A DNA stretch of 64,000 bases from an uncultured Kordiimonas sp. (GTDB taxonomy: Bacteria > Pseudomonadota > Alphaproteobacteria > Sphingomonadales > Kordiimonadaceae), in the NCBI GenBank assembly GCA_947503575.1, contig CANNDZ010000001.1:1178001-1242000 (forward strand), read 5' to 3'. Below the pieces are notes generated by a model, which was given only the letters and a program-made list of their open reading frames with translations, made no database searches and was not told the DNA's origin. The position numbers were made by a program, and so were the translations under genes. Positions 5,304 through 42,700 of the stretch are shown in pieces. The stretch's first letter is position 1, and every line of letters starts with the position of its first letter.

Positions 5304-5308
5304 ATTGG

Positions 5309-24468: not shown

Positions 24469-24578
24469 CGTGTCCTCTTCCATCAACAGTGATTACGTTG
24501 CGCACCTTCTAGCAACTCTCTTGACCTTTAAAAAATTTAATGTTTCTATAGTTTCCATTCATAAAATATAATGATCAT

Positions 24579-27269: not shown

Positions 27270-28100
27270 TTAGTGAACCTCTTCCCCGCCCGAAACATTC
27301 AAGGCTTCTCCCGTGATATAGCCCGCCGCTTCTGATGCCAGGAACACCGCAGCGGCTGCCGTATCTGTTGGCAAGCCAGGTCGGCCCATGGGATTTGTCC
27401 GCCGCATATTGGCCAAATAGTCATCAACGCTTTCAAAGCCAAGCAGTTTGGAAAAATAGTCATTTTGCTTGGCACCAAGCCCGGTAGTGACATGGTTGGG
27501 GCATATGGCATTAACAGTGATGCCATACTGACCAAGTTCAACGGCGTTGGACCGTGTCAGCCCAATCATGCCATGCTTTGACGCGGTGTAGGGCGCCATG
27601 TGGGGAAAGCCTGTCTTTGCTGCCTGACTGGCGATGTTGATGATGCGCCCGCCATTGTCTTTCATGGCCAGGGCGGCGTGTTTGCTGCATAGAAACGCCC
27701 CTTTCAGGTTTACGTCGAGAACGGCGTCCCATTCATCAACCGCCAAATCAAACATGGGTTTCATAATGTAGCCAATGCCAGCGTTGTTCACCAGAATGTC
27801 AATTTTTCCGAAGGTGTCCACCGTTGTTTTAATCAGGTTTTGCACCTGCGTGTCATCCCGTATGTCGGCTGCAATCGTCAACACATCTGCACCCTTGCTG
27901 CGCAGGGTGGCGGCAATGTCTTCCATCTCGTTTGTGGTGCCAATGTCATCGGCATCCAAATGAGTGGCTGGTGTGCCCAAGTCCGTGATAACTATTTTCG
28001 CCCCTTCGGCTGCAAAAGCCGCGGCAATCGCTTCACCCAGACCTTTTTTTCGGCCTGACCCGGTGACAATGGCCACTTTTCCATTAAGCAAGTTTGCCAT
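27270..28100 (-). CDS. Short-chain dehydrogenase/reductase (SDR)
   Basis: A classical SDR of 276 aa: the NAD(P) glycine motif is TGSGRKKGLGEAIA (about 14-27, with a small insertion), NNAGIG near residue 107, and the catalytic Ser in NIASQAA followed by YTASKHG (Tyr and Lys). The C-terminal half ends GYITGEALNVSGGEEVH, typical of the family. An acidic ITDLGTP after strand beta-2 suggests NAD rather than NADP preference. It lies 5 bp after the HapK-like gene as the last gene of the MarR-PrpD-HapK-SDR unit. The substrate is not evident. Confidence 0.9.
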   Translation of the reverse strand: MANLLNGKVAIVTGSGRKKGLGEAIAAAFAAEGAKIVITDLGTPATHLDADDIGTTNEMEDIAATLRSKGADVLTIAADIRDDTQVQNLIKTTVDTFGKIDILVNNAGIGYIMKPMFDLAVDEWDAVLDVNLKGAFLCSKHAALAMKDNGGRIINIASQAAKTGFPHMAPYTASKHGMIGLTRSNAVELGQYGITVNAICPNHVTTGLGAKQNDYFSKLLGFESVDDYLANMRRTNPMGRPGLPTDTAAAAVFLASEAAGYITGEALNVSGGEEVH

Positions 28101-28105
28101 GATGC

Positions 28106-28420
28106 CTACCCTTCGATGCTTTCTGACATAATAAACATGGGATTATCGGCAAAAGACTGAAACTCGCCAGCCACCTTTTGCATAACATCAGTGCCAATTT
28201 CTTCGCCGAACTTTGCCATGTCACTTACGCTGATGATTTCTACATACTGATACGGGCTGGAATCATCACTGCCGAGCAAACCATTGGTGCGGAAAACCTC
28301 AAATCCGGATACTGATGACAGGCCCCGTACGGTTTTCAGGTCAGTTTCCCGTGCCCAGGTTTCGTATGTCTCAATGGAAGCACCGTCTTTCAGATTAAAA
28401 AGCACAATAATTGTAGTCAT
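28106..28420 (-). CDS. REDY-like protein (HapK/RedY family)
   Basis: A 104-aa protein beginning MTTIIVLFNLKDG, with YETWARETDLKTVRGLSSVSGFEVFR and a C-terminal FQSFADNPMFIM. This pattern matches the small dimeric alpha/beta-barrel family named after RedY and HapK of prodiginine gene clusters. Those proteins are implicated in pigment biosynthesis but have no established activity. The gene lies between an MmgE/PrpD-like gene (22 bp) and an SDR gene (5 bp). Many family members occur in catabolic or biosynthetic operons of proteobacteria. Confidence 0.75.
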   Translation of the reverse strand: MTTIIVLFNLKDGASIETYETWARETDLKTVRGLSSVSGFEVFRTNGLLGSDDSSPYQYVEIISVSDMAKFGEEIGTDVMQKVAGEFQSFADNPMFIMSESIEG

Positions 28421-28442
28421 GTGGGTCTCCTTTACTTTGGCG

Positions 28443-29822
28443 TTAATGAGGGAACAGAAGGCGGAAATTATCGAAGCAATTTTTGGCTATATCGAGGGAT
28501 CTTATTGCTGCAAAGATAGGTCTCGCTTGCTCAGGCGATAGCGGTGCGAATGCAATTGACGCCGCTAGCTGAAATTTAGCCAATAAGTCCTGGTCAGACA
28601 GCGGGTTGTCGGGCGCTCCCAATACTGCGGGCACGTTGATAGTGATTTTGTCGCCTTTTTGGCCCTGGATCTCTACTTTTTGCGGCGATAACGCGTTCTT
28701 ATCCGGGTTTTCATCGATAGTAATATCGACCTTTTGTGCAGTGGCGTGAATTGCTGGGTCCAAAAACCGCGCTGCGCGGAACTCACGTGGGTCAATTTTC
28801 CCGTCCTGCAACGCCAACCCCACCAAAAACGGCAAGCACAGGCGCGCATATGCGGGAGACATATCAGGCTTTAGGGGTCGCCCTACAAGCCTGTGAACAA
28901 GGGGTGGCACCGATGCCGTGAGGCCAGCAAGGGTCTCAGACGATACCGTTCCCTCAGTGATATTTTTCAGTAGCACCGATAACACACCATGACTGGCGCG
29001 GCCCGTGGGGTAAGGCTTGATCGACAGGTCATCAATTGCAAACCGGTCACCAAGGCCATCCAGCATCATACCAATATCGCCGGTTTCCTCGATCAAGGAA
29101 AAATAACCAAATGGGCCGGTGAAAATATCATGTGGCCCTGACAAGCCCGCACTAGCCATATCGCAGGCATTCAGGGCCGCGCGCGCCGACAAGGCAACCT
29201 GCACAGCAAGGGCGGGCGTGCCTTCCACATGCGCCTGCATGGTGCCCTGAACCTGACTGTAAGCTAGGCCAAGGGCATCTTTGGTTTCGCTTTCTCCCAG
29301 GTCGCGCATTCTTGCAATTGCTGCGGTTGCCCCGATAAGGCCTGCGGTTGCCGGTCGGAAAAAACGCAGCGGACTGTTTGTTGCGACCCCAAGGCGCGAT
29401 GCGATGTCGACACCAACAATCAGACATTCAAGGAACGTCCCGCCACTGATGCACTCATGAGACTGAACTTCTGCCCACAACGCGCCAGTTGTGACCGACA
29501 TAGCATGTACTACTGCCGGTTCATGTACGGCATCCCATTCAAGGCAGTGGATAGCATGGGCTGTCAAAACAGCGGCTGTATCGCGGGTTGCGGTCTCTGG
29601 TCGCCCGGGAATTCTGTATGGTCCATGGTCGCCAGCAAATGCATTGACCATCGAGGCGTTGGTTTCTGCCGCGCTGCCAGCCAGCGCACAGCCCAATGTA
29701 TCGACCAGAAACGCCTTGGCACTTTCTATGGTGTGTGAGGGTGCTGCCGCTGGCGTCGGACCAAGGGCAAACTGGACCAATGCGTCTATCGCGTTTTCGT
29801 GGATTTCAGGCGCTGTTGTCAT
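28443..29822 (-). CDS. MmgE/PrpD family protein
   Basis: A 459-aa member of the MmgE/PrpD superfamily, which includes 2-methylcitrate dehydratase, iminodisuccinate epimerase and cis-aconitate decarboxylase. N-terminal helices contain VDTLGCALAGS (about 51-61) and HCLEWDAVHEPAVVHAMSVTTGAL (about 95-118), the conserved DD/H region of the active site, here with Asp100 and His103 visible. KPYPTGRASHGVL near residue 262 is the second signature. The surroundings give no methylcitrate cycle genes (no prpB or prpC), so another substrate is likely. Confidence 0.85.
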   Translation of the reverse strand: MTTAPEIHENAIDALVQFALGPTPAAAPSHTIESAKAFLVDTLGCALAGSAAETNASMVNAFAGDHGPYRIPGRPETATRDTAAVLTAHAIHCLEWDAVHEPAVVHAMSVTTGALWAEVQSHECISGGTFLECLIVGVDIASRLGVATNSPLRFFRPATAGLIGATAAIARMRDLGESETKDALGLAYSQVQGTMQAHVEGTPALAVQVALSARAALNACDMASAGLSGPHDIFTGPFGYFSLIEETGDIGMMLDGLGDRFAIDDLSIKPYPTGRASHGVLSVLLKNITEGTVSSETLAGLTASVPPLVHRLVGRPLKPDMSPAYARLCLPFLVGLALQDGKIDPREFRAARFLDPAIHATAQKVDITIDENPDKNALSPQKVEIQGQKGDKITINVPAVLGAPDNPLSDQDLLAKFQLAASIAFAPLSPEQARPIFAAIRSLDIAKNCFDNFRLLFPH

Positions 29823-29833
29823 ACAGTTTCCCG

Positions 29834-30340
29834 CTACTCTTCTTCATCGATGCTAAGCAGGATTTTGCGTAAGATAGATGCCACTACCTCGCGTTCTTTA
29901 TCGTTGATATCGCCAAGCAGGCGATGTTCGATCTCGTTTTCTTTTGTAATAACCGCATCAAATGTTTCCAGCCCTAGCGGTGTGACCGAAACAATCACAC
30001 CCCGACCATCGTTTTTGTCTTTGCGTCTAAGGATCAGGCCTTTTCTCTCCATGCGGGTCAGGACATTGGTCATGCCGCCGGATGTCAGCAAATTGTGCCG
30101 GGAAATCGCGTTGGGTTTGGCTTCATAGGGCGGACCCGAAACAATCAGCGCCCCAAGTGTTTGCAGTTCGGAATACGACAGGCTGTGCTGGTTTAACACC
30201 CGACTTAGCCTTGCAAGGAAAATGTCGTTGATACGGGTGATGCGGCCCCAAACCTGCCAGGGGGATATATCCATATCGGTGCGCGTTTCCGACCATGCGC
30301 GGCTTAACCGATCCAGTCTATCTTCTTTCCCTACAGTCAT
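29834..30340 (-). CDS. MarR-family transcriptional regulator
   Basis: A 168-aa MarR-type winged-helix protein. The central region LSYSELQTLGALIVSG...SRHNLLTSGGMTNVLTRMERKGLILRRKDKNDGRGVIVSVTPLG carries the recognition helix and the beta-wing with the usual Asp-Arg region. It is the first gene of a four-gene unit with PrpD, HapK and SDR genes and is divergent from a flavoprotein gene. The 108-bp gap between them contains two palindromes that are good candidates for its operators, so it probably represses both units and responds to their substrate. Confidence 0.9.
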   Translation of the reverse strand: MTVGKEDRLDRLSRAWSETRTDMDISPWQVWGRITRINDIFLARLSRVLNQHSLSYSELQTLGALIVSGPPYEAKPNAISRHNLLTSGGMTNVLTRMERKGLILRRKDKNDGRGVIVSVTPLGLETFDAVITKENEIEHRLLGDINDKEREVVASILRKILLSIDEEE

Positions 30341-30381
30341 GCCTCACCGTTTTGATCTACCGCAGATACAAATCAATATAT

Positions 30382-30405
30382 CTTGACATAAAGCTTTTTA
30401 ACAAG
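30382..30405. promoter_or_regulatory. Imperfect palindrome over the flavoprotein promoter
   Basis: CTTG...AAAGCTTT...CAAG pairs at 9 of 12 positions across 24 bp. It contains TTGACA (30383-30388), a -35 box followed at 17 bp by TGAAAT (30406-30411). Binding of the divergently encoded MarR protein here would block transcription of the flavoprotein gene. Confidence 0.45.
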
Positions 30406-30410
30406 TGAAA

Positions 30411-30429
30411 TTGCCAGAAATACTGGCAA
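30411..30429. promoter_or_regulatory. Perfect palindrome upstream of the flavoprotein gene
   Basis: TTGCCAGAAATACTGGCAA has 7-bp perfect arms around five bases, ending 19 bp before the flavoprotein ATG. Size and position fit a MarR-type operator or, alternatively, a 5' untranslated hairpin. Confidence 0.5.
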
Positions 30430-30448
30430 GCATACGGATATAAAAACC

Positions 30449-31849
30449 ATGGGCATCATCAGAAAACCGGATTTCACGCCGGATTTCAGCATTCCTGTTG
30501 TTATTGCGGGGGGGGGTGCGTGTGGCCTCACGGCAGCGATTGCCGCCAAAAGACAGGGTGTCGATGTTGTGGTTCTGGAACGGGATGCCCACCCAGCCGG
30601 GTCTACGGCTATGTCATATGGTGGCATATGTGCCGCTGATACGGTTGCACAAAAAAAAGTAGGCTTGTCTGACACCCACGAGCAGTTTTTTGACGATATT
30701 CTAGCGATCACCAAGGGTCAGACCGACCCTGCGCATGCTCGCACAATCGCTGAAAATGCCGGACCAACACTGGATTGGTTAACAGAAGACCTGGGGTTCG
30801 ACCTTGACGTGGAAGTGCAGTGGGCAGGCTTGGGCCATAGCCAACTGCGCCTGCACGCCCCTCCTGGTCGGTCTGGCGAAGTGTTGATGGGCATGCTGTT
30901 ATCGGCAGTAGACCGCGAGGGCGTTGATGTTTTAACGCAGGCGCGTGTGACAGACCTGATTGTGGGCTTGGATGACCGTATTTTGGGTGTTCGTGTAGAA
31001 CGCCCTGACGGCATGGAAGAATTTGGCTGTGACCAGCTCATCCTTGCGACCTGTGGCTATGGTGGCAACGAAGACCTGATCCGACAGTATATGCCAGAAC
31101 TGGAAAATGCGCAGTATTATGGCCATGAAGGCAATGTTGGTGATGCCTTGTTATGGGGCCAGGAACTTGGGGCCGCCGTTGATGACCTGGGGGCTTATCA
31201 GGCACTTGGTTCGCTCAGCAGCCCCGGAAACCTCGTGATACCTCATACCCTATTGATTGGTGGCGGAGCGCAAATAAACAAAAATGGCGAGCGGTTTGAA
31301 AACGAACTGCACGATATTTCGGGGCAGGCGCTGACGATTTTGGAACAGCCAGACGGCGAAATCTGGGTTGTGTATGACCAAACCCTGCACGACGAAGCGC
31401 AAGATCGCTTCGAAGAATATAAAACCGCAGTTAGTTTGAACCTGTGTAAGTTTGCGTCAAACTGGGCAGACTTAGCGCAGCAGATGCGGGTGCCCGCCGA
31501 TGTGCTGGTGAGGACGATGGACTCTGTCACAAGGTATAAACAGGGCGACACCAGCGACCCGTTTGGCCGCCCATTCACCACAGATCGCCAATTGGAAGCG
31601 CCTTTTTATGCCATCAAAGTTACAGGCGCACTTTTCCATACGCAGGGTGGTTTGTGCGTGAACGGTGAAGCGCGCGTGGTGCGGGCTGATGGCTCCGCGT
31701 TCCCAAACCTTTTTGCAGGTGGTGGTGCGGCACGCAGTGTATCCGGCCCCTCGGTTTGGGGGTATCTGCCGGGTATGGGGATATGCACTGCAGTGACCCT
31801 GGGTAAACTGGCCGGCGAAACGGCAGCACGCTCTGCCAAGCTGGTTTAA
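30449..31849 (+). CDS. FAD-dependent oxidoreductase of the fumarate reductase/3-ketosteroid dehydrogenase flavoprotein family
   Basis: A 466-aa soluble flavoprotein. The FAD motif VVIAGGGACGLTAAIAAKR begins at about residue 17, with GSTAMSYGGICAA around residue 51. The C-terminal SGPSVWGYLPGMGICTAVTLGKLAGE matches the second FAD contact of this family. It could be a Delta1-dehydrogenase or an enoate/fumarate-type reductase; catalytic residues do not settle it. It is divergent from the MarR operon and its stop shares bases with the convergent phosphonopyruvate decarboxylase stop. Confidence 0.86.
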   Translation: MGIIRKPDFTPDFSIPVVIAGGGACGLTAAIAAKRQGVDVVVLERDAHPAGSTAMSYGGICAADTVAQKKVGLSDTHEQFFDDILAITKGQTDPAHARTIAENAGPTLDWLTEDLGFDLDVEVQWAGLGHSQLRLHAPPGRSGEVLMGMLLSAVDREGVDVLTQARVTDLIVGLDDRILGVRVERPDGMEEFGCDQLILATCGYGGNEDLIRQYMPELENAQYYGHEGNVGDALLWGQELGAAVDDLGAYQALGSLSSPGNLVIPHTLLIGGGAQINKNGERFENELHDISGQALTILEQPDGEIWVVYDQTLHDEAQDRFEEYKTAVSLNLCKFASNWADLAQQMRVPADVLVRTMDSVTRYKQGDTSDPFGRPFTTDRQLEAPFYAIKVTGALFHTQGGLCVNGEARVVRADGSAFPNLFAGGGAARSVSGPSVWGYLPGMGICTAVTLGKLAGETAARSAKLV

Positions 31850-32985
31850 TGGCTTAAAAACGCCATAAAACGCTGGGCAACCTCTGCTGGGGTAACCGTT
31901 GGTCGTGCAAGGTTTTCAAGCGAGCCAACCGCGATGCGCATATGGATCATATGGGGGCCACTTTCTGACACCGCATCGCTGATTATTTGCCGCACTGTGT
32001 TCGCGTCGTCGCAGCGCGTTGCAGTTTTGTATCCGCACGCTGCCGCGATAGCTGCAAAATCAACACTTTCAGACCCTGTGGGTTGGCCGCCGGTAGAATC
32101 GTGGGCGGCATTATCTAAAATGACATGAATCAAGTTGGCAGGGCGTTCCCGGCCAATGGTGGTAAGCGTACCAAGTCGCATGAGCGCCGCACCATCCCCA
32201 TCAAGAACGATGATAGGTTTATTAGGCCGGGCAAGCGCGATGCCAAGCCCAATGGCGCCCGCAGACCCCATGGACCCAACCATGTAAAAATTCTGAGGCC
32301 TGTGCCCCAGGGTAAACAGTTCACGGCTACATTTGCCGGTTGTGGCGACCACGGCTGCATCCTCTGGTATTACTGCGACAATCGCGCGCAAAGCGTCATA
32401 GCGCGACATTGCTGGTTTGTGGCGGCATTGATCCGTGGTGGATGTTGTACTGCGTTCCGGAATGATTTGGTTTTCCGCAGGATGCACTAAAGGCGCAAAA
32501 CTGTCAGGCTTGACGAGCAAGGCAACAGGCTTTTGCGTTTCCGTCATGGTGGAAAACGCCGTGTTCAGGCACGCACGCATTGCGGCTACGTCAGTTGGCA
32601 GCTCCAGGCTTTCAACACCCATTAATTTTAGCATATCGCGCGTGGTCTTGCCCATCAGGTGATGCTGGGGTTCGTCTTCAATACCTGGCGCCGCGCGCCA
32701 CCCGATCACCAGTAAAACCGGAATGCGGAATGGGTCATTCAAGGAACTGAGAGGATTGATCAGATTGCCAAGTCCGGAGTTTTGGCAGAAAACAGCTGGT
32801 GTTTTACCCGCAAGATACGCACCAGTGGCCATGGCCAGGGCATCGGTTTCGATGACGGCCCCTACATAGTCATCATCGTTTGCCAGCACCTGCATCGGGG
32901 CTTTCAGAAATGAGCAAGGCACACCAGAAAAGAAATTTGTTCCGTGCGACCGAAGCGCGTCAATAAACTCCGTCGCATCCAGCAC
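31846..32985 (-). CDS. Phosphonopyruvate decarboxylase (TPP-dependent)
   Basis: This enzyme decarboxylates phosphonopyruvate to phosphonoacetaldehyde, which pulls the unfavourable PEP mutase reaction forward. From the GTG at 32985 it is 379 aa; an in-frame TTG at 33018 would add 11 residues. The order is an N-terminal pyrimidine domain (FFSGVPCSFLKAP at 18-30, Glu46 as the TPP activating glutamate) and a C-terminal PP domain with LDGDGAALM (261-269). VPCS is typical of phosphonopyruvate decarboxylases. It starts about 5 bp beyond the PEP mutase stop (2 bp between stop codon and GTG), so they are coupled. Confidence 0.9.
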   Translation of the reverse strand: MLDATEFIDALRSHGTNFFSGVPCSFLKAPMQVLANDDDYVGAVIETDALAMATGAYLAGKTPAVFCQNSGLGNLINPLSSLNDPFRIPVLLVIGWRAAPGIEDEPQHHLMGKTTRDMLKLMGVESLELPTDVAAMRACLNTAFSTMTETQKPVALLVKPDSFAPLVHPAENQIIPERSTTSTTDQCRHKPAMSRYDALRAIVAVIPEDAAVVATTGKCSRELFTLGHRPQNFYMVGSMGSAGAIGLGIALARPNKPIIVLDGDGAALMRLGTLTTIGRERPANLIHVILDNAAHDSTGGQPTGSESVDFAAIAAACGYKTATRCDDANTVRQIISDAVSESGPHMIHMRIAVGSLENLARPTVTPAEVAQRFMAFLSH

Positions 32986-32989
32986 AAGC

Positions 32990-33955
32990 TTAACCCGAGT
33001 GTCTCTTGCGCGACGCAAGAGACACTGGCCCCTTCAACAGCCCTTCAGTGTCAGTCAGTGATAGAATGTCTTCAACTGATGCGATGAGAGGTTCAAGGGC
33101 GCTGACGCTGCGTTCGTCAAAAATGGTTTGATACGCTGATGCCATGCTTGTCATGGCCGCACGCAGCCCATGATTAGCCCAGATGACGGCGCTGATGCCA
33201 AGCCGTTCAAACACATCTGTTGGAGTGCCGGAGTAGGTTGTTGGCGCGATAATGATGGGGATTGTGCCTGTCCAGCTATCGCAGAAGGCTTCAATTTCAA
33301 ACGCGGTTTTCTGTTTTGAATGCACAAAAAGCGCATCGGCCCCTGCGGCCTCGTAGCGGTTGGCTCGCTCCAGCGCTTCGGGAAGGCCCGCACCAGCGAC
33401 CAACGCTTCGGTGCGGGCAACTACGCAAAAATCATCAGTTTTCTGATTATCCTTTGCAGCCATAATCATACTGGTGAAATCTGCAATATCAGCGAGTTGA
33501 TGCCTTGTGTTGGCAAATGAATTCCGCTTGGGAAAAGCCTTGTCTTCAATGCAAACACCAGCAACGCCTGTTTCGCAGGCTTTGCGAACAAAGCGCCCGA
33601 ATATGTTGAAGTCGCCGTAACCGCTGTCAGCATCCAGAAGAACTGGCCGGTCGACAAAATCTGTGATCGGATCAACCAGATTTAGGACATCTGTCCATGT
33701 TAGTTCGTTCGCGTCGCGCAGCCCCATCGAGGCCGATAGCGTTAGGCCAGATGCCCAAACGGCCTTAAACCCGGCATCAACGGCGAGTTTTGCCGCCATG
33801 GCGTTGTGCGCTTCCATGATGAAAGACAGGTCTTTTGAATCCAGAAGTGCCCGCAATTGTTTTCCGACAGATATCCCCACAGTTTCTGACGTCTTGATTG
33901 AATTGTCAGTCAATGTATTCCACCGGTTTGTTGCACTGTTGTCCTCCAAGGGCAT
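32990..33955 (-). CDS. Phosphoenolpyruvate mutase, PepM (C-P bond formation)
   Basis: PepM rearranges phosphoenolpyruvate to phosphonopyruvate, the entry step of nearly all natural phosphonates. The 321-aa protein has the diagnostic EDK-x5-NS motif at residues 137-146 (EDKAFPKRNS), which separates true mutases from isocitrate lyase-like hydrolases. The metal site DADSGYG is at 108-114. The first 30 residues are not conserved, so a later start is possible. The decarboxylase gene follows directly. It is divergent, over 131 bp, from a PLP aminotransferase gene. Confidence 0.94.
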   Translation of the reverse strand: MPLEDNSATNRWNTLTDNSIKTSETVGISVGKQLRALLDSKDLSFIMEAHNAMAAKLAVDAGFKAVWASGLTLSASMGLRDANELTWTDVLNLVDPITDFVDRPVLLDADSGYGDFNIFGRFVRKACETGVAGVCIEDKAFPKRNSFANTRHQLADIADFTSMIMAAKDNQKTDDFCVVARTEALVAGAGLPEALERANRYEAAGADALFVHSKQKTAFEIEAFCDSWTGTIPIIIAPTTYSGTPTDVFERLGISAVIWANHGLRAAMTSMASAYQTIFDERSVSALEPLIASVEDILSLTDTEGLLKGPVSLASRKRHSG

Positions 33956-34086
33956 ATTTGTAGATGCATACGGGTTCTTTGTAGCCTAGTCAGGTTGTTG
34001 ATGTCATGGCAAAAGAATCAAATACCAGATAGGTTTGGGCGTGATCATCCCGGCATGAATACGGGGCCAAAGCAGGAAAAATCACT

Positions 34087-35292
34087 ATGACATCTCCGAA
34101 GTTGGGCAATCAGGTGCAGGCGCTGGACGGCTACGCCACCAAAGCGATGGCAGAAAAAGCGCGCGCCACCGCCGGCGCGATTAATCTGGCGTTTGGTGAA
34201 CCCTCCTTTGGGCCGCCCAAAACCAGCCAGCAGGCAATAGAAGACAACGACCTGACCTGGGACGCGTTTTATACGTCCAGTAAGCGGTATGAAAAAAACC
34301 GGGGTATGCCGGAATTGCGGACGGCGATTGCCGATTATTATGCCCGAAGATACGATCTGAACGTTGACCCTGATAGCGAAATCCTGATCACACACGGCGG
34401 GGTGGAGGCAATCACGCTGGCCGCTCTTGTGACATCAGACCCGGGCGATACCATTCTGATAACAGACCCAACCTACATGCTGTACCAGCGGGCGATTAAA
34501 ACGCTTGGGCGTGAACCGGTGGCCGTGTCGCGACCTTGTGGTGGGCACGAATATGCGATTATGTCATCCACTAGCGAGCGCTTGCCATCAGCCCGCGCGA
34601 TGATTGTTAATTCGCCGGAAAACCCGAGCGGTTATGTCGCCAGCAACGATGATATGGCAGCCCTTGCGGATATCTCACGCAGCCAGGACATGTGGATCCT
34701 GCATGATGAGGTGTATGACAGCATGGTTTTCAAGCGCCCGCATGTGCCTGCACGCTGCGTGCCTGAATTGAAAGACCGCTCCATCCTGATCAATAGTTTT
34801 TCAAAAAAATACGGCGTGCCGGGGTTGCGCATTGGCTGGTTGTGTGCGCCGAAAGCTGTGATTGATTTGGCGGCAAAGCTGCATGACTTCATGTATTTAG
34901 GGGTTAATATTCTGTCAGAACGAATAGCAACCCGTATGATTGCTGACACCCGCGCCGACCCTTGGATGGATGAAACAGCTGAGGTGCTGGCCGCACGGGC
35001 GCTGCGGCTGCATGCAACCCTGTCGGCGGACAAAGGTTTTTCATGGCCGCGCGCGCCACAGGGCGCCATGTTCGCTTTCCCCAACGTGCGGGGTTTGGCT
35101 GAAAAACAGGGTTTGGCGGTAGACGAAGACGGTGCTGGAAAAGCCGTTGCTAACTGGTTGTTGGCGGAAAAGAAAATCGTCAGCATCCCCGGCCATGTTT
35201 ATGGCCCAACCAGTGAAGATTGTATCCGGTTGATTTTATGTTCTGATGCCGATGTGTTTGAACAGGGCCTGGCTGCACTGGACAGAATTTAA
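34087..35292 (+). CDS. Class I/II PLP-dependent aminotransferase of the phosphonate locus
   Basis: A 401-aa fold-type I aminotransferase. NSPENPSG (175-182), DEVY (207-210), the PLP lysine K240 in NSFSKKYG, and LRIGW with R248 are all in place. CAGGAAAA precedes the ATG. It is divergent from the PEP mutase/decarboxylase pair. It could aminate phosphonoacetaldehyde to 2-aminoethylphosphonate, although the classical enzyme (AepZ/PhnW) is a class V protein, or act on phosphonopyruvate to give phosphonoalanine. The substrate is therefore open. Its stop overlaps that of the convergent ATP-grasp gene by 4 bp. Confidence 0.88.
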   Translation: MTSPKLGNQVQALDGYATKAMAEKARATAGAINLAFGEPSFGPPKTSQQAIEDNDLTWDAFYTSSKRYEKNRGMPELRTAIADYYARRYDLNVDPDSEILITHGGVEAITLAALVTSDPGDTILITDPTYMLYQRAIKTLGREPVAVSRPCGGHEYAIMSSTSERLPSARAMIVNSPENPSGYVASNDDMAALADISRSQDMWILHDEVYDSMVFKRPHVPARCVPELKDRSILINSFSKKYGVPGLRIGWLCAPKAVIDLAAKLHDFMYLGVNILSERIATRMIADTRADPWMDETAEVLAARALRLHATLSADKGFSWPRAPQGAMFAFPNVRGLAEKQGLAVDEDGAGKAVANWLLAEKKIVSIPGHVYGPTSEDCIRLILCSDADVFEQGLAALDRI

Positions 35293-36800
35293 CGCCTGTT
35301 GTGCGCAATTTTCTGGTTCACCATTGTCGTAAAGGCATCACCGATCGCGTCCATATGCCGTTTCAGGTAGGGGAAGTTGTCTGCATGGGCATAACTATGG
35401 CGCATCGCCGGGTTCAGCTCAAAAATCAGGATCGTACCGTCCTCCAGCAGCGTGAAGTCGAAGCCAAAAAAGTCCAGGCCTATAATACCTGGCAGAGTTT
35501 CAAGCAGGGCATAAGCAGATTGCCCGATAACCGAGGCCGGGTCGTCCATAAACCGTCGTTCTTTTTCCAGCATCCAATCATGCTGCGCCATAAAGGTTTT
35601 GCGGTTGCCGCCGTGCACATTCCACACTTCGTCAATATGATGAACAACCGGGTATAGCCTGCCATCAATGGCAAAAAACCGCATTTTGGTATAATGGCCA
35701 GCATCCGATGCATTTTCCACAAATTCTATGACGTAAAAACTGTTGCCGGTGGCACCCGCCAGATATGCATCAAGAGCAGGACGATTTGTCACCAGTTCTG
35801 TCGTTATAGCGGTATGTGTGCCGGTTTGCCGAATAATTAAGGGGTATGAAAAACCTGCTGCTTCAATCTGGTTGGCAAGTCCCGTTGCTTCATTTTCCGC
35901 TAACGTGAAACGTTCGGTTCTGGGAAACCGGATACCGGCAATTTTATTGAGACGGTCACAATTGTTGTCCCGTGTTGTCGCTAGCACCTGCGTTGGGTGA
36001 TTAACGATGGGCGGGTGCGGTGTTTTGGCCAGGTAGGCTTCAAGCGACTTTAAAGAGTTATATTCTGTATCTGCATCCGCGATGATATTCAGGATCATGT
36101 CATGGGGCCCGGCGGGGGGCTGGTCGGCAATATTATCGCGGGCAACAACATAGGTATCGAGATCATAATCTGACAAATTCAACAGATATTGCGCCATAAA
36201 GTGGCCGCCACTGCGATAGTATTTGAAACTGCCGTCTTTGCGCGGTGCCATTTTATACTGGGTTTTGTCATAGCCGGTGAACCGCAAAATTTTACCCAGT
36301 GGCTCGGCATCTCGGTCAGAAGCGGTATGGGTTAATGGGTGTTTTTGGAAAAATTCCAAAAGAAAATCGCGCGATTGCTGCTTGCGGTCCAGAATGTAAT
36401 ACAAGCTGGCAAGACGGATATGATCATCATGGTCGTCTGGAACGGCTTCAATAATCCGCTCATAAATTTTTGCGGCATATTCAAAGCGCCCTGCCGTCAT
36501 CAGTATGGCACCCAGCGACCGCAGGTCTTCTATGTCTTTGCCTTCGCCCAGCGTTGCCGAGTCAAAGCCTGCTATGTGAGTTGCCAATTCATACAGGGTT
36601 GCAGATTCTTGTGGCTTACCGGATTGAGACAACAAATCGGCATGCCGGAACATCAGGGATATAAGTGTTTCCCGCGCAAGCCCCGCAGCCACAGGTGCAC
36701 CTTTATCCCGCCTGCCCATGGCAACAAACGCCTCGGCTACCTCTTTATCAAGGTCGGATGGGGCAGCATCATCGTCGGATGGTTTTTTAAAAAGGGCCAT
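35289..36800 (-). CDS. TPR domain fused to an ATP-grasp (RimK-like) ligase domain
   Basis: A 503-aa cytosolic protein. Residues about 40-170 form helical TPR-like repeats. Residues about 235-490 show an ATP-grasp fold: a pre-ATP-grasp region NHPTQVLATTRDNNCDRL, ATP-lid PLIIRQTGTHTA, YVIEFVENA, and the metal-binding C-terminal DFFGFDFTLLEDGTILIFELNPAM with Asp, Glu and Asn. Such domains usually form amide bonds by an acyl phosphate. Its place beside PEP mutase, decarboxylase and aminotransferase genes makes an aminophosphonate or phosphono-amino acid a possible substrate, but that is inference; a peptide or protein target is equally possible. Confidence 0.8.
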   Translation of the reverse strand: MALFKKPSDDDAAPSDLDKEVAEAFVAMGRRDKGAPVAAGLARETLISLMFRHADLLSQSGKPQESATLYELATHIAGFDSATLGEGKDIEDLRSLGAILMTAGRFEYAAKIYERIIEAVPDDHDDHIRLASLYYILDRKQQSRDFLLEFFQKHPLTHTASDRDAEPLGKILRFTGYDKTQYKMAPRKDGSFKYYRSGGHFMAQYLLNLSDYDLDTYVVARDNIADQPPAGPHDMILNIIADADTEYNSLKSLEAYLAKTPHPPIVNHPTQVLATTRDNNCDRLNKIAGIRFPRTERFTLAENEATGLANQIEAAGFSYPLIIRQTGTHTAITTELVTNRPALDAYLAGATGNSFYVIEFVENASDAGHYTKMRFFAIDGRLYPVVHHIDEVWNVHGGNRKTFMAQHDWMLEKERRFMDDPASVIGQSAYALLETLPGIIGLDFFGFDFTLLEDGTILIFELNPAMRHSYAHADNFPYLKRHMDAIGDAFTTMVNQKIAHNRR

Positions 36801-36915: not shown

Positions 36916-37983
36916 TTATTTTACGGTGCTTTGGCAGGTGTTCACGGCGCTATCAAGTGCCGCCAACCACTGTTCACCATAGCGGTCTGCAAACCAGCGT
37001 CGCATGCCTGCTGTGGCATCTATAAATGTTTGCCGGTCGTCGATGGAGGGGCGGTAAATCGTTCCACCTGCTTGGGCGAATTCTTCAAGAGCGCTGGCTT
37101 CGCCCGCTTTTGTTACATCGCGTGTGACCTTTTGCAACTCGCTAAACGCTTCCTGGACGATGCTTTGTTGCGTCGGGGAAAGCTGTTGCCAACTGTTGTC
37201 ACTGTACCACCACATAGCCGCCATATAGGCATGGCCGTCCAACGTCAGATGTTTGATATGTTCATGAAACTTCATCCCCACGATGTCCTGCACACTGTTT
37301 TTAGTGCCTTCAACAACCCGTGTCGCCAGCGCGGAATACAGTTCTGACCAGGCAATTGGGGTGGCGCTGGCGTCCAGTTGGCGCATCATTTCCTGCTGGA
37401 TGGGTGCGGTAACTGTGCGCAATTTCAGGCCCTTCAGGTCACTTGCCTCTTTTACCGGTGTGCCAACGGTGGCGAAGTTACGCCAACCACCCGTGTTGGA
37501 TATGACGCCAAGCCTGATGCCAGTGCCCGCATCCAGCATTGCCTCGCGTAGCCGTTCAGCAAAAGGGCCATCAACAACGCATTCGGCAACGGCGTCGCCC
37601 TCAAACGCATAAGGCAAATCAAGCACTTGTATGGCACCAAACAGGCTGCCGGCACCGCCAGCCGTGGTCATGGTGACTTCCAGTGTGCCTGATTGCAGTG
37701 CTTCAAGGCATTCGCGGGCATTGCCGCAAAACTGCCCTGCCGGGAATATCTGTACGGTAACGGCACCTTGTGTGCGCGCCTCCACAGTTTTTTTGAAAGC
37801 CAGCGCGCCTGCATAGTCTTCGTCGTCTTTGGACCCCAGAAACGCAACCTTTATCACCTCGCCGCGATTAGCGCTAAAGCTGTAACTTAGTCCCACCAGG
37901 CACATGGCAATAAGGGCAAAGAACAGAATGCGGATGGCGCTAGTGCGGCGGTCGTTTGCTGGTTTGTGGTCTTGCTCCATCAT
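36916..37983 (-). CDS. TRAP transporter substrate-binding protein (DctP family)
   Basis: A 355-aa DctP-type periplasmic solute receptor. The N-terminal hydrophobic segment (about 17-37) acts as signal peptide or anchor. VTVQIFPAGQFCGNARECLEALQSGTLEVTM fits the family's early motif, and SELYSALATRVVEGTKNSV near residue 205 carries the conserved region after the carboxylate-binding arginine (LKGLKLRTV, about 170-178), so an organic anion is the expected ligand. It is the last gene of the DctQ-DctM-DctP unit. Confidence 0.9.
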   Translation of the reverse strand: MMEQDHKPANDRRTSAIRILFFALIAMCLVGLSYSFSANRGEVIKVAFLGSKDDEDYAGALAFKKTVEARTQGAVTVQIFPAGQFCGNARECLEALQSGTLEVTMTTAGGAGSLFGAIQVLDLPYAFEGDAVAECVVDGPFAERLREAMLDAGTGIRLGVISNTGGWRNFATVGTPVKEASDLKGLKLRTVTAPIQQEMMRQLDASATPIAWSELYSALATRVVEGTKNSVQDIVGMKFHEHIKHLTLDGHAYMAAMWWYSDNSWQQLSPTQQSIVQEAFSELQKVTRDVTKAGEASALEEFAQAGGTIYRPSIDDRQTFIDATAGMRRWFADRYGEQWLAALDSAVNTCQSTVK

Positions 37984-37991
37984 ACCCCCCC

Positions 37992-39278
37992 CTACAAAAA
38001 CCCGAGTGCTTTTGGGATGGTTAGTGACAGGGCTGGGAAGTAGGTGATTAGGAAAATTACACCGATTTCAACAGCCAGAAACGGCAGCATTTCCTGCGCG
38101 ATACGGTCAACTTTTTCACCTGAAATGGAAGAAGCAACAAACAGCACAAGCCCCATCGGCGGCGTTGCCAGTCCAACAGTAACATTGACGCACATGACGA
38201 TGGCAAAATGCAGCGGCTCCAACCCCAGCCCAATAAAAATGGGGCCAAGCACCGGCCCGAGAATAAGGATTGCAGGTCCTGCATCCAAAAACATACCGAC
38301 GATCAGCAAAAAGATGTTCACCAGAAACAGCAACAGCAACACATTATCAGTGATGCCGGTGAGTGCAGTAGCCAGCTGTTCGGCCATGCCAGACACCGTG
38401 ATGATCCAGGCAAAGGTAACGGCGGCTCCCACCAACAGCAGGATTACCCCCGACTGCGTTGCCACATTGCGGAAGATCAGCGGCAGGTCTTTGATATTCA
38501 AAGACCGCATGAAAAACAGCCCGACAACAAGCGCATAAAAAGCAGCAACGGCGGCTGCTTCCGTCGGCGTGAAAATGCCCAGTACAATACCACCCAGCAG
38601 GATAACCGGGGTGAGCAGTGCGAGGATGGTGCTTTTGAAGGCAGCGCCGCGTTCCCCCCAAGTTGCTTTGCGGTTGGCAACCGGATAGTCGCGTGCTTTT
38701 GATATGCGACTGGTCATCAGCATCAAACCAGCAGCAACAAGAAAGCCTGGCACGATACCCGCAGCAAACAGCCCCCCCACTGACACATTCATGATGAAGG
38801 CATAGATAATCATAATGCCAGACGGCGGAATGATTGGCCCGATCACGGAAGATGCCGCCGTTACCGCCGCCGAAAACCGTTTCGAGTATCCGGCTTCTTC
38901 CATCGCGGGTACCAGCATTTTACCAAGGGCTGATGTGTCCGCCACGGCGGAGCCTGAAAGTCCGGCAAACAGGATAGAGGACAGAATATTGATTTGTGCC
39001 AGGCCACCCCGTACATGGCCGATTAGTGTTTGGCTAAAGCGCACAATTGCGCGGGTAATGCCGCCTGAATTCATGAGCTCACCCGCCAGAATGAAAAACG
39101 GCACGGCCATCAGCGGAAAACTGTCCATGCCGTTATAAAGGCGGCTCAGGAGCGCTCGCACATATTGTGGCTGGCCATCAAGTGTCAGACTGAGGGCAGG
39201 GCCAATCAATAGGGCAAACACCACAGGGGCACCAATCACCATCAACAGAATGAATATCCAGAAGTACCCAAGCGACAT
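37992..39278 (-). CDS. TRAP transporter large membrane subunit (DctM family)
   Basis: A 428-aa membrane protein with about twelve hydrophobic helices. The DctM signatures FILAGELMNSGGITRAIVRF, SGSAVADTSALGKMLVPAM and IGPIIPPSG are visible. The start at 39278 is chosen because it lies 2 bp after the DctQ stop and gives the usual N-terminus; a longer frame to 39410 overlaps DctQ and is not credible. It provides the sodium-coupled transport channel for the DctP-bound solute. Confidence 0.92.
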   Translation of the reverse strand: MSLGYFWIFILLMVIGAPVVFALLIGPALSLTLDGQPQYVRALLSRLYNGMDSFPLMAVPFFILAGELMNSGGITRAIVRFSQTLIGHVRGGLAQINILSSILFAGLSGSAVADTSALGKMLVPAMEEAGYSKRFSAAVTAASSVIGPIIPPSGIMIIYAFIMNVSVGGLFAAGIVPGFLVAAGLMLMTSRISKARDYPVANRKATWGERGAAFKSTILALLTPVILLGGIVLGIFTPTEAAAVAAFYALVVGLFFMRSLNIKDLPLIFRNVATQSGVILLLVGAAVTFAWIITVSGMAEQLATALTGITDNVLLLLFLVNIFLLIVGMFLDAGPAILILGPVLGPIFIGLGLEPLHFAIVMCVNVTVGLATPPMGLVLFVASSISGEKVDRIAQEMLPFLAVEIGVIFLITYFPALSLTIPKALGFL

Positions 39279-39280
39279 GA

Positions 39281-39820
39281 TCAGTCGTTCCCTTCTGTGA
39301 TTAGGTATGATTTTCCCGATGATGTGAGGGTCAGCATGTAGCGCAACAATGTTTCGATACCAACCAGGAACAAGGCACAAAAGGCGATAGGTACAATGCT
39401 GTAAAACCAAGCCAACTTAACCGGCACGGTTGCCGCAAAGGTCGCACGGCCTTGCTGCCAGAAATCAATGCTTTCGATGAAAAAGACATATAGCGACCAC
39501 AGAATAAGCGTGTGCACAACGAGGCCAAGCCATAGCCTGAAACGGCTTGAAAAGGGTTCAATGAACATATCAACCGATACAAAAGCACCGTATCGGTACG
39601 CCCAGGGGCTAACCAAAAAAGTAACCCAAACCATCATCACTTTGGCGATTTCTTCGCTCCAGCTAAAGGCAGCGTTCAAGCCGTAGCGGTAAAAAACCTG
39701 TGCCAGGACAATGCTAACCATCGCAGCCAGCATAACGGCGGCAATATTGCACCCGGTTTTGGCGATTGTTCCGTTCACAGAACCCAAACCAGCTGCCAGA
39801 TTTTCAAAGAAACGTCGCAA
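39281..39820 (-). CDS. TRAP transporter small membrane subunit (DctQ family)
   Basis: A 179-aa protein with four hydrophobic helices, YRYGLNAAFSWSEEIAKVMMVWVTFLVSPWAYRYGAFVSVDMF being the characteristic DctQ stretch. It is the first gene of the DctQ-DctM-DctP operon. About 105 bp separate it from the TonB receptor gene, which is in the same orientation upstream, so the receptor and the TRAP system may share expression. Confidence 0.9.
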   Translation of the reverse strand: MRRFFENLAAGLGSVNGTIAKTGCNIAAVMLAAMVSIVLAQVFYRYGLNAAFSWSEEIAKVMMVWVTFLVSPWAYRYGAFVSVDMFIEPFSSRFRLWLGLVVHTLILWSLYVFFIESIDFWQQGRATFAATVPVKLAWFYSIVPIAFCALFLVGIETLLRYMLTLTSSGKSYLITEGND

Positions 39821-39865
39821 AGCCTCTCCCCTTGGCTGTGAGCGCGACCAGTCCCTAAAAGGGGT

Positions 39866-39890
39866 GGCGCACCGCCGTAAGCGATGCGCC
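39866..39890 (-). terminator. Hairpin between the TonB receptor and TRAP genes
   Basis: GGCGCA and TGCGCC pair around a 13-nt loop, 36 bp beyond the receptor stop codon on the minus strand, followed by ACCCCTTTTAGGG. The T-run is short, so termination may be partial. Confidence 0.35.
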
Positions 39891-39925
39891 GATAGTGCGA
39901 TCAGGATATCGCTTTTGGCAACTTC

Positions 39926-42313
39926 TTAGTTGAAGTTTGCCCGGAAGTTGATGCCAAAGTAACGGTCTGCTTCCCGTGGTATTTGATACCGGAAGCCATC
40001 GCCGCTGTATGTGGTGACAAAGCTTTCGTCGAATAGATTGCGGACGAAGCCGGTAAACAGATACTGACCATCATTCATTGAGAAGGTGATGCTGGCATCC
40101 ACTTTGTCATAGCCCGGCAACAGGCCAACAGGGTTAAATGAACCATCCGTGTTGGGCAGCAGAGATTGCTGCTCGTCGATACGGGCCCAGTTGGCATTCA
40201 GCACAACTTCTGTGCCGTCGCTAACCGGAATGACATATTCACCGCCAATATTGAAGTTGAAGTCCGGCGAGAACAACAGATCAAGTCCTGAACGATCTGA
40301 GCAGTTGGCAGGGGGTTGGCCTGACAGCGGATCAACCGGGCAGTTGAACTCTTCGATCTGAGCATCATTCAACGCAGCAGACGCCGTCAGCGTGAAGTTG
40401 GCTGTTGGGTTCCAGAGCATGTCCAGCTCGATACCCTTGGTGGAAACATCGCCCGCGTTGGTTAGCCGCGTGATGGTGACACCGGTTGAATTGTCAAAGT
40501 TGTTGGCTTGGAAGCCACTGATTTCAGTGTAGTAGGCGGCCAAGTTCACAACAAGATCGCTGGACGCATATTTGTAGCCAACTTCAAACGAGTCTGACGA
40601 CTCTTCAGCAATCGGAAGTTCGTCGTTGCGGCCCATGTTGTAAAACACGTTAAAGGCTGGTCCTTTATACCCTTGGGCGTAGGTGGCATAGACCACGCCA
40701 GCGTCCCCCATATTATACTGCAGACCGGCCTGAACCGAGAAGTCCGTGTTGCTGCTTTGGTTCGCGAAATCGGTGGCAAAACCGCCGGATGCTTCGCTGA
40801 ATTGGCTGTTGGGTAGTTCGGGCCGAACGCCCACACCCTGGCGACCGAAGGTGTCAAGGCTGACCCTGCGGTGATTGAACGACACGGTGTCGTCTGTGTA
40901 ACGTGCGCCGAAAATCAAGGTCAGCTCATCTTCGATCAGCTCATAGCTACCTTGACCAAAGAAAGCCCAGTTTTCGATATCCACATTGCTGAAGCCGGTG
41001 GCCGCAACAATGTCATTGGCGTTACAGGTCAAACCAGGGTTTGCATCCAGAATGGCTTGGTTTTGGCCGCCATTGTTTTGGCAGCTCGCGTTGCGGGTAA
41101 AGTCCGCTTCCTGGTCTTGATTAAAGTAGTAGAAGCCGACCTGATAAAACAGCCGCTCGCCTTCGGGGCCAGACAGTCTGATTTCCTGGGACACCTGATC
41201 CCATTCCCGAGTGCCGTCATCATGCAGTTGGAACGGAACACCGAAAACCGGCTGGTCTGACGTGCCACCGATGGAGGTAAAGTCTCCTTCGCGGAATTCA
41301 GTGTTTGACCAGTTTCTGTAAGCGGTGATGGATGTAAGGGTAAAGTTTTCAAAATCCTTGTTGATTTCAACGGACCAGGCATCGGTGTTATCAAGGGTTC
41401 TGGTCTCGAAATCATGGTCGATACGCCGCTGACCCAAATCAAGGTCTGCAACACCGTTAACAATGCCGTTGCTGTTTGGGGCCGCTGGTGATGCCGGGTT
41501 ACGGCCACTTGGCAGCACCTCAAGGTCGGCGCAGCAATCATCGTCGGCTTCTGAATGTTCATAGATCGCGAGGATCGACAGCGTATCAGACGGCATATAC
41601 TCCACCATCGCCCGGAAGCCATAGCGGTCGTATCCATTAACGGTCCGGTTGTTGAATTCGTTTGTGATGTAGCCTGCGAACTCGGATTTGGTGACCGTCA
41701 GGCTAGCGTTCAGGTTATCCGCCAGGGGGCCGGAAATGCGCCCGCGCACCCGCCATTCATTGTCTTCTGCGAGCATGGCATCCACGTAACCTTCCAGCTC
41801 GCTGGTTGGACGTTTGGTTGTGATGTTGACAACACCCGCCGATGCATTTTTGCCAAACAGTGTCCCCTGTGGCCCGCGCAGCACCTCTAATCGGTCAATG
41901 TCATATAAGTCTGCAAATGCCTGACCGGAACGCGCGAGGACAACACCGTCAACAACAGTTGAAACGCTGGGTTCTGCCGCGCCGCTGAAAGAGATCGTGC
42001 CAATACCCCGGATTGTGATCGCAGAGTTGGCATTTGTTGTCCCTTTCCTGAAGCTCACAGATGGTATCAGGGTTTGCAGGGCTTCGATATTCGGTGCTTG
42101 CGCGCGGTCAATCGCACCTGAGTCGAGCACGCTAACGGCAATCGGCACTTCACTCAGTCGTTGTTCGCGCTTTTGCGACGTGACAACAATTTCTTCAAAA
42201 ACACCATCATCGCTTGCTGCGTCTTGCGCTGCGGCTGTCGCTGTGCAGGCGAGGGCGGCAATAATCGACACGCTGGACAACGCTGTCATTTTACTGCGAA
42301 TATATCTGGACAT
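39926..42313 (-). CDS. TonB-dependent outer-membrane receptor
   Basis: A 795-aa outer-membrane receptor. A signal peptide (MSRYIRSKMTALS... to ATAAAQD) is followed by a TonB-box-like EEIVVTSQKREQRL, a plug domain (about 45-150 with IRGIGTISFSG and DRLEVLRGPQGTLFGKNASAGVVNI) and a 22-strand barrel ending in an aromatic-rich RYFGINFRANFN. The start follows GGAGGA; the longer frame to 42388 lacks a signal peptide at its start. Such receptors import siderophores, B12, oligosaccharides or other large solutes; the ligand here is unknown, and the neighbouring TRAP genes suggest an organic acid compound. Confidence 0.93.
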   Translation of the reverse strand: MSRYIRSKMTALSSVSIIAALACTATAAAQDAASDDGVFEEIVVTSQKREQRLSEVPIAVSVLDSGAIDRAQAPNIEALQTLIPSVSFRKGTTNANSAITIRGIGTISFSGAAEPSVSTVVDGVVLARSGQAFADLYDIDRLEVLRGPQGTLFGKNASAGVVNITTKRPTSELEGYVDAMLAEDNEWRVRGRISGPLADNLNASLTVTKSEFAGYITNEFNNRTVNGYDRYGFRAMVEYMPSDTLSILAIYEHSEADDDCCADLEVLPSGRNPASPAAPNSNGIVNGVADLDLGQRRIDHDFETRTLDNTDAWSVEINKDFENFTLTSITAYRNWSNTEFREGDFTSIGGTSDQPVFGVPFQLHDDGTREWDQVSQEIRLSGPEGERLFYQVGFYYFNQDQEADFTRNASCQNNGGQNQAILDANPGLTCNANDIVAATGFSNVDIENWAFFGQGSYELIEDELTLIFGARYTDDTVSFNHRRVSLDTFGRQGVGVRPELPNSQFSEASGGFATDFANQSSNTDFSVQAGLQYNMGDAGVVYATYAQGYKGPAFNVFYNMGRNDELPIAEESSDSFEVGYKYASSDLVVNLAAYYTEISGFQANNFDNSTGVTITRLTNAGDVSTKGIELDMLWNPTANFTLTASAALNDAQIEEFNCPVDPLSGQPPANCSDRSGLDLLFSPDFNFNIGGEYVIPVSDGTEVVLNANWARIDEQQSLLPNTDGSFNPVGLLPGYDKVDASITFSMNDGQYLFTGFVRNLFDESFVTTYSGDGFRYQIPREADRYFGINFRANFN

Positions 42314-42700
42314 GTATTCCTCCGGCTTTATGTATGGTTGGTAAACTAAACACCAAAACGCACGGGAGAGGTGGTTCTGCGGACGCAAAACTCAGGGTAG
42401 TACTGTCTCCCCAGCTGCAACTTTTTGTTTCTCGAACAGGCCAAAAAGGTACAACTTATTATCTTCCCGAGGACCATTGGATAACATTTGAAATATAAAT
42501 GCAACTTTTTGTCGAACAGGGTGGGGACGTCATCGCGTATAATTTTTCACTTGATGCGAAGAAGTCACTATCCATACTTTTGGCCAAAATCTGATGAGAA
42601 ACCACTCTGAAAGCAGGCAGAAACCAGCGAAAAACAATCAAGGTCTGTCTATTATATCAACAGCGGCACGTATCTGCCGCCGCATACCAGGGCCCGTTTG
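42314..42700. other. Divergent intergenic region between the TonB receptor and Gfo/Idh/MocA genes
   Basis: Holds no credible gene. It contains a direct repeat with one 4-base gap, at 42416-42440 (TGCAACTTTTTGTTTC...) and 42500-42520 (TGCAACTTTTTGTCGAAC...), both ending CGAACAGG. Two copies 84 bp apart in a divergent promoter region suggest binding sites for a regulator. On the minus strand each copy places a TTGCA box where a -35 element of the receptor gene might lie. Confidence 0.5.

Follow-up and report, generated by a model that had tools for sequence, protein, structure and literature searches.

A conserved four-gene phosphonate cassette in Kordiimonas that may make an amide-linked aminophosphonate

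The window analysed here is a stretch of 64,000 nucleotides, positions 1178001-1242000 of a contig in the 3.6-Mb genome of a marine Kordiimonas (G000), and it encodes a compact group of phosphonate genes. A phosphonopyruvate decarboxylase gene (ppd/aepY, 31846-33018, minus strand) adjoins a phosphoenolpyruvate (PEP) mutase gene (pepM/aepX, 32990-33955, minus strand). The 3' end of pepM overlaps or abuts the ppd start; the true start of ppd may be the GTG at 32994. An aminotransferase of class I/II (fold type I) that depends on pyridoxal phosphate (PLP) is encoded at 34087-35292 on the plus strand; it is transcribed divergently from pepM-ppd and does not form one operon with them. Tail to tail with it, overlapping its stop by 4 nucleotides, lies a gene (35289-36800, minus strand) for a predicted amide ligase, in which the AlphaFold2 model and fold comparison place a TPR-like domain (residues ~1-165) before a RimK/LysX/GshB/Ddl-like ATP-grasp domain (~166-503). 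The spacer between the divergent pepM and aminotransferase genes contains a 13-nucleotide candidate operator, ATGTCATGGCAAA (34001-34013, plus strand), singled out by its recurrence in related genomes. An original prediction made from the letters of this DNA had named the mutase, the decarboxylase and the aminotransferase as a compact core. The gene calls agree on all three, and the trio is indeed a conserved unit, but the core comprises four genes, as the ATP-grasp gene had been overlooked. The four genes very probably make a small carbon-phosphorus compound, and this phosphonate may be attached to something via an amide bond.

The first two enzymes are assigned by curated models. PepM scores 333.9 bits against the PEP mutase model TIGR02320 (cut-off 319.55) and 197.3 bits against phosphonopyruvate hydrolase (TIGR02321), below the cut-off of 374.4. 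Its best match in the PDB is mussel PEP mutase (1m1b, E = 2.4e-87). It carries the sequence EDKAFPKRNS, and the corresponding EDK-x5-NS loop motif, which we take to be diagnostic of PEP mutase, is found in PepM of all nine genomes with the cassette and in PepM of an Azospirillum plasmid described below. Ppd reaches 425.6 bits against TIGR03297 (cut-off 312.5), with orthologues in all nine cassette genomes. These scores and the adjacency of the two genes support the earlier call of a true PEP mutase with a coupled decarboxylase. PepM would convert PEP to phosphonopyruvate, and Ppd would convert phosphonopyruvate to phosphonoacetaldehyde, the decarboxylation pulling an unfavourable mutase step whose equilibrium favours PEP more than 500-fold (PMC12871164). 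As judged from the models, the two steps jointly are nearly certain.

The aminotransferase matches Pfam Aminotran_1_2 (PF00155, E = 2.8e-51), which makes it a class I/II enzyme and not a PhnW-type class V enzyme, as had been anticipated. It passes no NCBIfam cut-off among the best 25 of 73 matches. Its AlphaFold model (mean predicted local distance difference test score, pLDDT, of only 73.6) resembles ordinary fold-type I aminotransferases, with 2o0r as the best structural match (Z = 37.7, rmsd 3.0, 372 aligned residues). Three residues are invariant across eight Kordiimonas aminotransferases and the one from Azospirillum: K240, presumably the PLP lysine, R381, which we take to be the alpha-carboxylate arginine, and V106 at the presumed distal-acid position. 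In an alignment, Val106 corresponds to Lys169 of Arabidopsis prephenate aminotransferase; we assume that this lysine binds the distal acid group, and a solved variant of that enzyme has valine at this position. Since the distal-acid lysine is replaced, the Kordiimonas enzyme is unlikely to hold phosphonopyruvate in the way that aspartate aminotransferase (AAT) holds oxaloacetate. PhnW (TIGR02326) is found over cut-off in none of 29 family genomes, with the broader TIGR03301 not searched genome-wide; sub-cut-off matches to TIGR02326 occur in all 29 and equally in 14 of 14 control genomes. Genetic linkage, the lack of a PhnW match over cut-off and the loss of the distal-acid lysine together make it likely that the class I/II enzyme takes the place of PhnW and would transfer the amino group of an alpha-amino acid to phosphonoacetaldehyde, yielding 2-aminoethylphosphonate (AEP). 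A phage search with the aminotransferase returned 119 records, the best listed of them at 27-29%, and no relatives were found in viral contigs.

The fourth protein shows weak TPR matches and belongs to no NCBIfam family. Its AlphaFold model (mean pLDDT 83.7, 9 sequences) begins with N-terminal helices and continues with an ATP-grasp fold at residues 169-503, which aligns with RimK (7qyr; Z = 18.0, rmsd 4.1, 271 aligned residues). Further fold matches are ArgX, LysX, glutathione synthetase and D-Ala-D-Ala ligases, all ATP-driven makers of amide bonds, and the D-Ala-D-Ala ligases head the Foldseek ranking (E = 9.2e-10). Next by fold comparison (Z ~15) come inositol phosphate kinases and synapsins, and because they share the fold, it is by itself no proof of ligation. 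All 22 family members compared have Asp448, Asn463 and Arg324, and all but one have Glu461. In RimK-like ligases, Asp, Glu and Asn presumably bind metal and Lys binds ATP. Pfam RimK matches appear in four of seven family members at E up to 1. The enzyme would activate a carboxylate as an acyl phosphate and couple it to the AEP amine, yielding an aminoacyl- or peptidyl-AEP amide; the modelled fold and the conserved linkage to the other genes make such a ligation plausible.

The cassette is conserved within the genus. A close pepM orthologue (at least 335.9 bits) is present in nine of 19 Kordiimonas genomes (G000, G003, G005, G006, G010, G014, G015, G017 and G018), and the four-gene layout is kept next to it in all nine, with flanks that vary between groups and a G010 ligase gene that is cut by a contig end. 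The cassette orthologues are 45-78% identical to the window proteins. Among 29 family genomes, the aminotransferase clade occurs in exactly these nine (E up to 1e-60). It was found in none of 397 other genomes of the phylum at 1e-75 and none of 384 other genomes of the class at 1e-60, in searches that scored at most four candidates per genome at strict cut-offs and may miss copies. Nonsynonymous divergence is lower than synonymous divergence in 27 of 27 pairs (pN 0.16-0.38, pS 0.71-0.83; G014 left out, G010 without its ligase), given as raw proportions rather than dN/dS because synonymous sites are saturated in most pairs. In gene trees covering seven of the nine genomes, pepM, ppd and the aminotransferase agree on a G005/G017 pair (support 1.00, 0.998 and 0.97), though not on every deeper split.

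The divergent spacer may hold a control element shared by the two halves of the cassette. The 13-mer ATGTCATGGCAAA has a single exact site in its own 3.6-Mb genome (reversed control, 0), but such uniqueness is expected by chance for any 13-mer, so only its recurrence between species speaks for function. It recurs in the pepM/aminotransferase spacer of five of the nine cassette genomes (G000, G006, G010, G014 and G015), with three tandem copies in G010, and all 24 of 160 loci that contain it are overlapping copies of that same spacer. The exact 13-mer is absent from the spacers of G003, G005, G017 and G018, and with two mismatches allowed the window has 5 sites, no excess over the 3.1 that chance predicts. 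That the element recurs between species with saturated synonymous sites suggests that the divergent genes are controlled together.

Other pepM loci were compared with the cassette. Of 398 genomes sampled from the phylum, 19 pass the TIGR02320 cut-off, and the survey covers 22 neighbourhoods: 20 loci from 18 of the phylum genomes (one of them, L154, below the PEP mutase cut-off) and two from the order, with six weaker matches left out. Its profiles detect only the cassette ligase family and aminotransferases above 60 bits, so that other ATP-grasp or class I/II genes may escape. Within these bounds, ppd is present at 15 loci and a class I/II aminotransferase scoring over 60 bits to the clade profile at three; no locus has both, and none has the cassette ligase family. 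The comparison with other pepM neighbourhoods that the original prediction proposed thus finds the combination of ppd and a class I/II aminotransferase in none of the 22, but does find it on a plasmid. On plasmid unnamed3 of Azospirillum thermophilum (NZ_CP029358), pepM (385 bits to TIGR02320), ppd and the gene for an aminotransferase that shares 49.7% identity with the window enzyme are consecutive, which ties the aminotransferase family to pepM-ppd outside Kordiimonas. The Azospirillum cluster (L156 6844-15454) goes beyond the shared trio: it also encodes a second aminotransferase (47% identical), a GNAT/FemAB-like protein and a PhyH domain to which part of a PhnW-like domain is fused. The cassette ligase family has no match in the 19.2 kb of this plasmid examined. 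The Azospirillum cluster is followed by DUF47 and phosphate transporter genes.

We propose that the cassette is a minimal biosynthetic unit whose product is a conjugated aminophosphonate. PEP would be converted via phosphonopyruvate and phosphonoacetaldehyde to AEP, which would then be ligated in an ATP-driven amide-forming step, and we give this pathway as a whole about an even chance. A narrower version, in which a TPR-guided RimK-like ligase joins AEP from the class I/II aminotransferase to the carboxylate of a peptide or protein, so that a TPR-recognised partner receives a C-terminal phosphonate cap, would define an undescribed class of conjugates in Alphaproteobacteria; we consider it speculative and on balance improbable. 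No conserved small peptide or carrier gene is apparent by eye in the cassette gaps of eight of the nine genomes (25 small open frames, no alignment). In G018, the gene immediately after ppd and in the same orientation encodes a radical SAM C-methyltransferase of the type that matures ribosomally synthesised and post-translationally modified peptides (TIGR03975, 529 bits; L022 11656-13557).

Several observations weigh against the proposed pathway. The ligase tree groups the genomes differently from the trees of the other three genes, pairing G015 with G017 (support 0.96), which makes the case for the ligase evolving with the other genes weaker than its constant adjacency suggests. Cassette ligases form no supported clade apart from stand-alone relatives, and neither pepM nor ppd is matched in the DNA examined around these relatives (14 regions plus L038 and L040). 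The window protein misses the Pfam RimK gathering score (13.7 against 21 bits) and does not reach significance in a direct profile comparison with E. coli RimK; in that non-significant alignment, Arg324 replaces the RimK lysine. The aminotransferase and ligase genes of G014 are frameshifted (L026 10617-13355), by assembly error or decay. AlpH and AlpI, the PEP mutase and decarboxylase of the argolaphos pathway, gave AEP in Streptomyces, ascribed to host aminotransferases (PMC8976061), so that a dedicated aminotransferase is not strictly needed. Because the Azospirillum cluster includes a partial PhnW-like domain, AEP formation need not fall to its class I/II enzyme. Finally, the family is not bound to phosphonates, since one member on a Piscirickettsia salmonis plasmid, which shares 34.9% identity with the window enzyme and scores 362.6 bits against the clade profile, lies in a 15.4-kb stretch where neither pepM nor ppd is matched.

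One alternative places transamination a step earlier. If the aminotransferase were a phosphonopyruvate transaminase like PnaA, it would make phosphonoalanine, whose carboxylate the ligase would couple to an amino acid or peptide, and Ppd would serve a second product or a branch. PnaA is of the AAT superfamily and makes a product that ATP-grasp ligases couple further (PMC11867202), and R381 is invariant in the Kordiimonas clade. The position of the AAT-type distal lysine is occupied by Val106, however, and Ppd, adjoining pepM in nine of nine cassettes, would compete irreversibly with such a transaminase. PnaA partners a PEP mutase in a cluster without ppd, and all three of the 22 surveyed pepM loci with a class I/II aminotransferase likewise lack ppd. 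Two of these three aminotransferases were scored; at 311.6 and 305.2 bits to asp_aminotase_Arch they contrast with 157.7 for the window enzyme, and both keep a lysine at the Val106 position. These points leave a phosphonoalanine route rather unlikely.

AEP could also be placed on a surface glycan or lipid by enzymes encoded elsewhere, the ATP-grasp neighbour having another role. The bulk of the bacterial capacity for phosphonates is attributed to the tailoring of cell surfaces, with nucleotidyl activation (PMC6697681). As had been predicted for the locus, no cytidylyltransferase or phospholipid transferase is present: a Pfam scan finds no nucleotidyltransferase (NTP-transferase) or CDP-alcohol phosphotransferase domain among 49 window proteins, which are most but not all of the likely window genes, the rest of the genome not having been scanned. 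The ligase, moreover, stays adjacent in nine of nine cassettes. A surface route therefore seems unlikely. As no PhnW passes its cut-off and neither transferase occurs among the 49 proteins, the earlier suggestion of a free or conjugated phosphonate instead of the standard head group is the better guess; its further step to a new product stays conjectural, a set of pepM, ppd, a PRK05764-type aminotransferase and an ATP-grasp gene being present also in the argolaphos cluster.

Alternatively, the aminotransferase might be a cyclodehydratase of the GntC/VioD type, or an ordinary amino-acid aminotransferase whose place beside pepM has no functional meaning. GntC (NF041364) gives its best NCBIfam score, and the 34.9% identical Piscirickettsia relative (L157 5651-8315), which has no pepM nearby, lies beside a 2-oxoglutarate-Fe(II) oxygenase and near a peptide MFS transporter. 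We reject the cyclodehydratase identity: the score is 230.6 bits against a cut-off of 415, and the model is not specific, since two AAT-like enzymes outscore the window enzyme on it (263.2 and 237.7 bits). Exact co-occurrence with the cassette in nine of 29 genomes, and linkage to pepM-ppd once more in Azospirillum, make a bystander very unlikely. Least probable of all, and very unlikely, is phosphonate degradation, in which the aminotransferase would deaminate phosphonoalanine or AEP to the keto compound and PepM would run toward PEP: the PepM equilibrium does lie that way (PMC12871164) and a TRAP transporter and a TonB receptor adjoin the cassette in four genomes, but Ppd has no role in such a pathway, the permease does not track the cassette (see below), and the phosphonatase PhnX (TIGR01422) is over cut-off in none of 29 family genomes (sub-cut-off matches in 24 of them and in 5 of 14 control genomes; C-P lyase, PhnA, PhnZ and PalA not searched).

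The closest known systems are the argolaphos and phosphonoalamide pathways, and the cassette represents a familiar type of pathway that is unusual in its composition. PnaA and AlpL are likened to the window enzyme by published description, not by sequence. The argolaphos alp cluster of Streptomyces monomycini (PMC8976061) contains pepM (AlpH), ppd (AlpI), a PRK05764-type aminotransferase (AlpL) and an ATP-grasp protein (AlpC). AlpL aminates phosphonoformaldehyde, a precedent for the transamination of a phosphono-aldehyde, and the text seen leaves open which ligase forms the amide bonds. Argolaphos adds the reductase AlpJ, the dioxygenase AlpG and the dehydrogenase AlpK, which lead to phosphonoformaldehyde, as well as a GNAT and other genes; the Kordiimonas cassette has only four genes in a divergent/convergent layout, with no equivalents of AlpJ, AlpG or AlpK among them. 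The phosphonoalamide genes pnaABCD of Streptomyces (PMC11867202) also form a four-gene core that combines pepM, an AAT-type transaminase and ATP-grasp ligation, and PnaA, PnaB, PnaC and PnaD make phosphonoalamides. This minimal cluster has no Ppd, a transaminase that acts on phosphonopyruvate and two ligases, for which the accessible text mentions no TPR domain, whereas Kordiimonas has Ppd and a single TPR-ligase. In the classical AEP pathway (PMC6697681), pepM and ppd are joined by a class V AEP transaminase, often with PntC; Kordiimonas shares pepM and ppd and differs in its class I/II aminotransferase and in having no nucleotidyltransferase among the 49 window proteins. A partial literature search (titles and abstracts) found no published description of this four-gene cassette.

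If the proposed pathway is correct, the cassette adds an AEP-forming aminotransferase family outside PhnW and, for marine Alphaproteobacteria, a small, expression-ready pathway that leads to a soluble phosphonate amide, with genes few enough for a trial in Escherichia coli. More generally, where pepM is grouped with a ligase and nucleotidyl activation is lacking, a phosphonate fate other than surface tailoring would be predicted. A matching prediction concerns the three ppd-less loci, all from the same class, in which pepM is followed by genes for a PF00155 aminotransferase, an NTP transferase and a CDP-alcohol phosphatidyltransferase (L149 7246-10978, L150 7429-11229, L153 2737-8192). From its gene content this looks like a phosphonoalanine-based phospholipid pathway, and such loci would be expected to yield phosphonoalanine-based lipids.

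Relatives of the ligase extend beyond the cassette. A search of plasmids with the ligase returned seven records at 25.5-28.0% identity. In long relatives, a TauD dioxygenase domain is fused before the TPR-ATP-grasp part (Pfam, five of five scanned: L084 7095-9293, L085 8716-10821, L086 7627-9771, L088 8171-10474 and L092 8213-10525); the DNA examined around them matches neither pepM nor ppd.

A TRAP transporter and a TonB receptor lie beside the cassette in the window (36916-42388), and TRAP, TonB and GFO genes adjoin it in G000, G003, G006 and G018. G010, G014 and G015 seem by eye to have some flanking genes of another set in common. We considered the transporter and receptor as core parts and rejected them, as the distribution of the permease does not follow the cassette. 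The permease occurs in eight of 29 genomes: four carry it beside the cassette, two have the cassette on another contig and two have no cassette. No TRAP permease was found in three cassette genomes, and in G005 and G010 a contig ends beside the ligase gene, so that adjacency cannot be judged there. The permease is 93-97% identical in three relatives in which the cassette proteins are 56-78% identical, and this far greater similarity points to a separate function.

The window also encodes protochlorophyllide reductase subunits, BchF and PucC (3711-7233 and 11360-12838), and phototrophy looks rare in the family. The original prediction had set the phosphonate genes in a phototroph, an association that does not hold: the dark protochlorophyllide reductase domain (PCP_red, PF08369) occurs in only one of 29 family genomes and the cassette in nine. 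We dropped the link, and phototrophy is incidental to the cassette. Next to ppd, SDR, HapK-like, MmgE/PrpD, MarR and FAD_binding_2 genes (27270-31849) perhaps form a catabolic block, the MmgE/FAD part of which is matched only in G006 among the cassette regions examined. Further away, a DabA inorganic-carbon transporter subunit and its proton-antiporter-type partner are followed by a divergent LysR gene (20339-24486).

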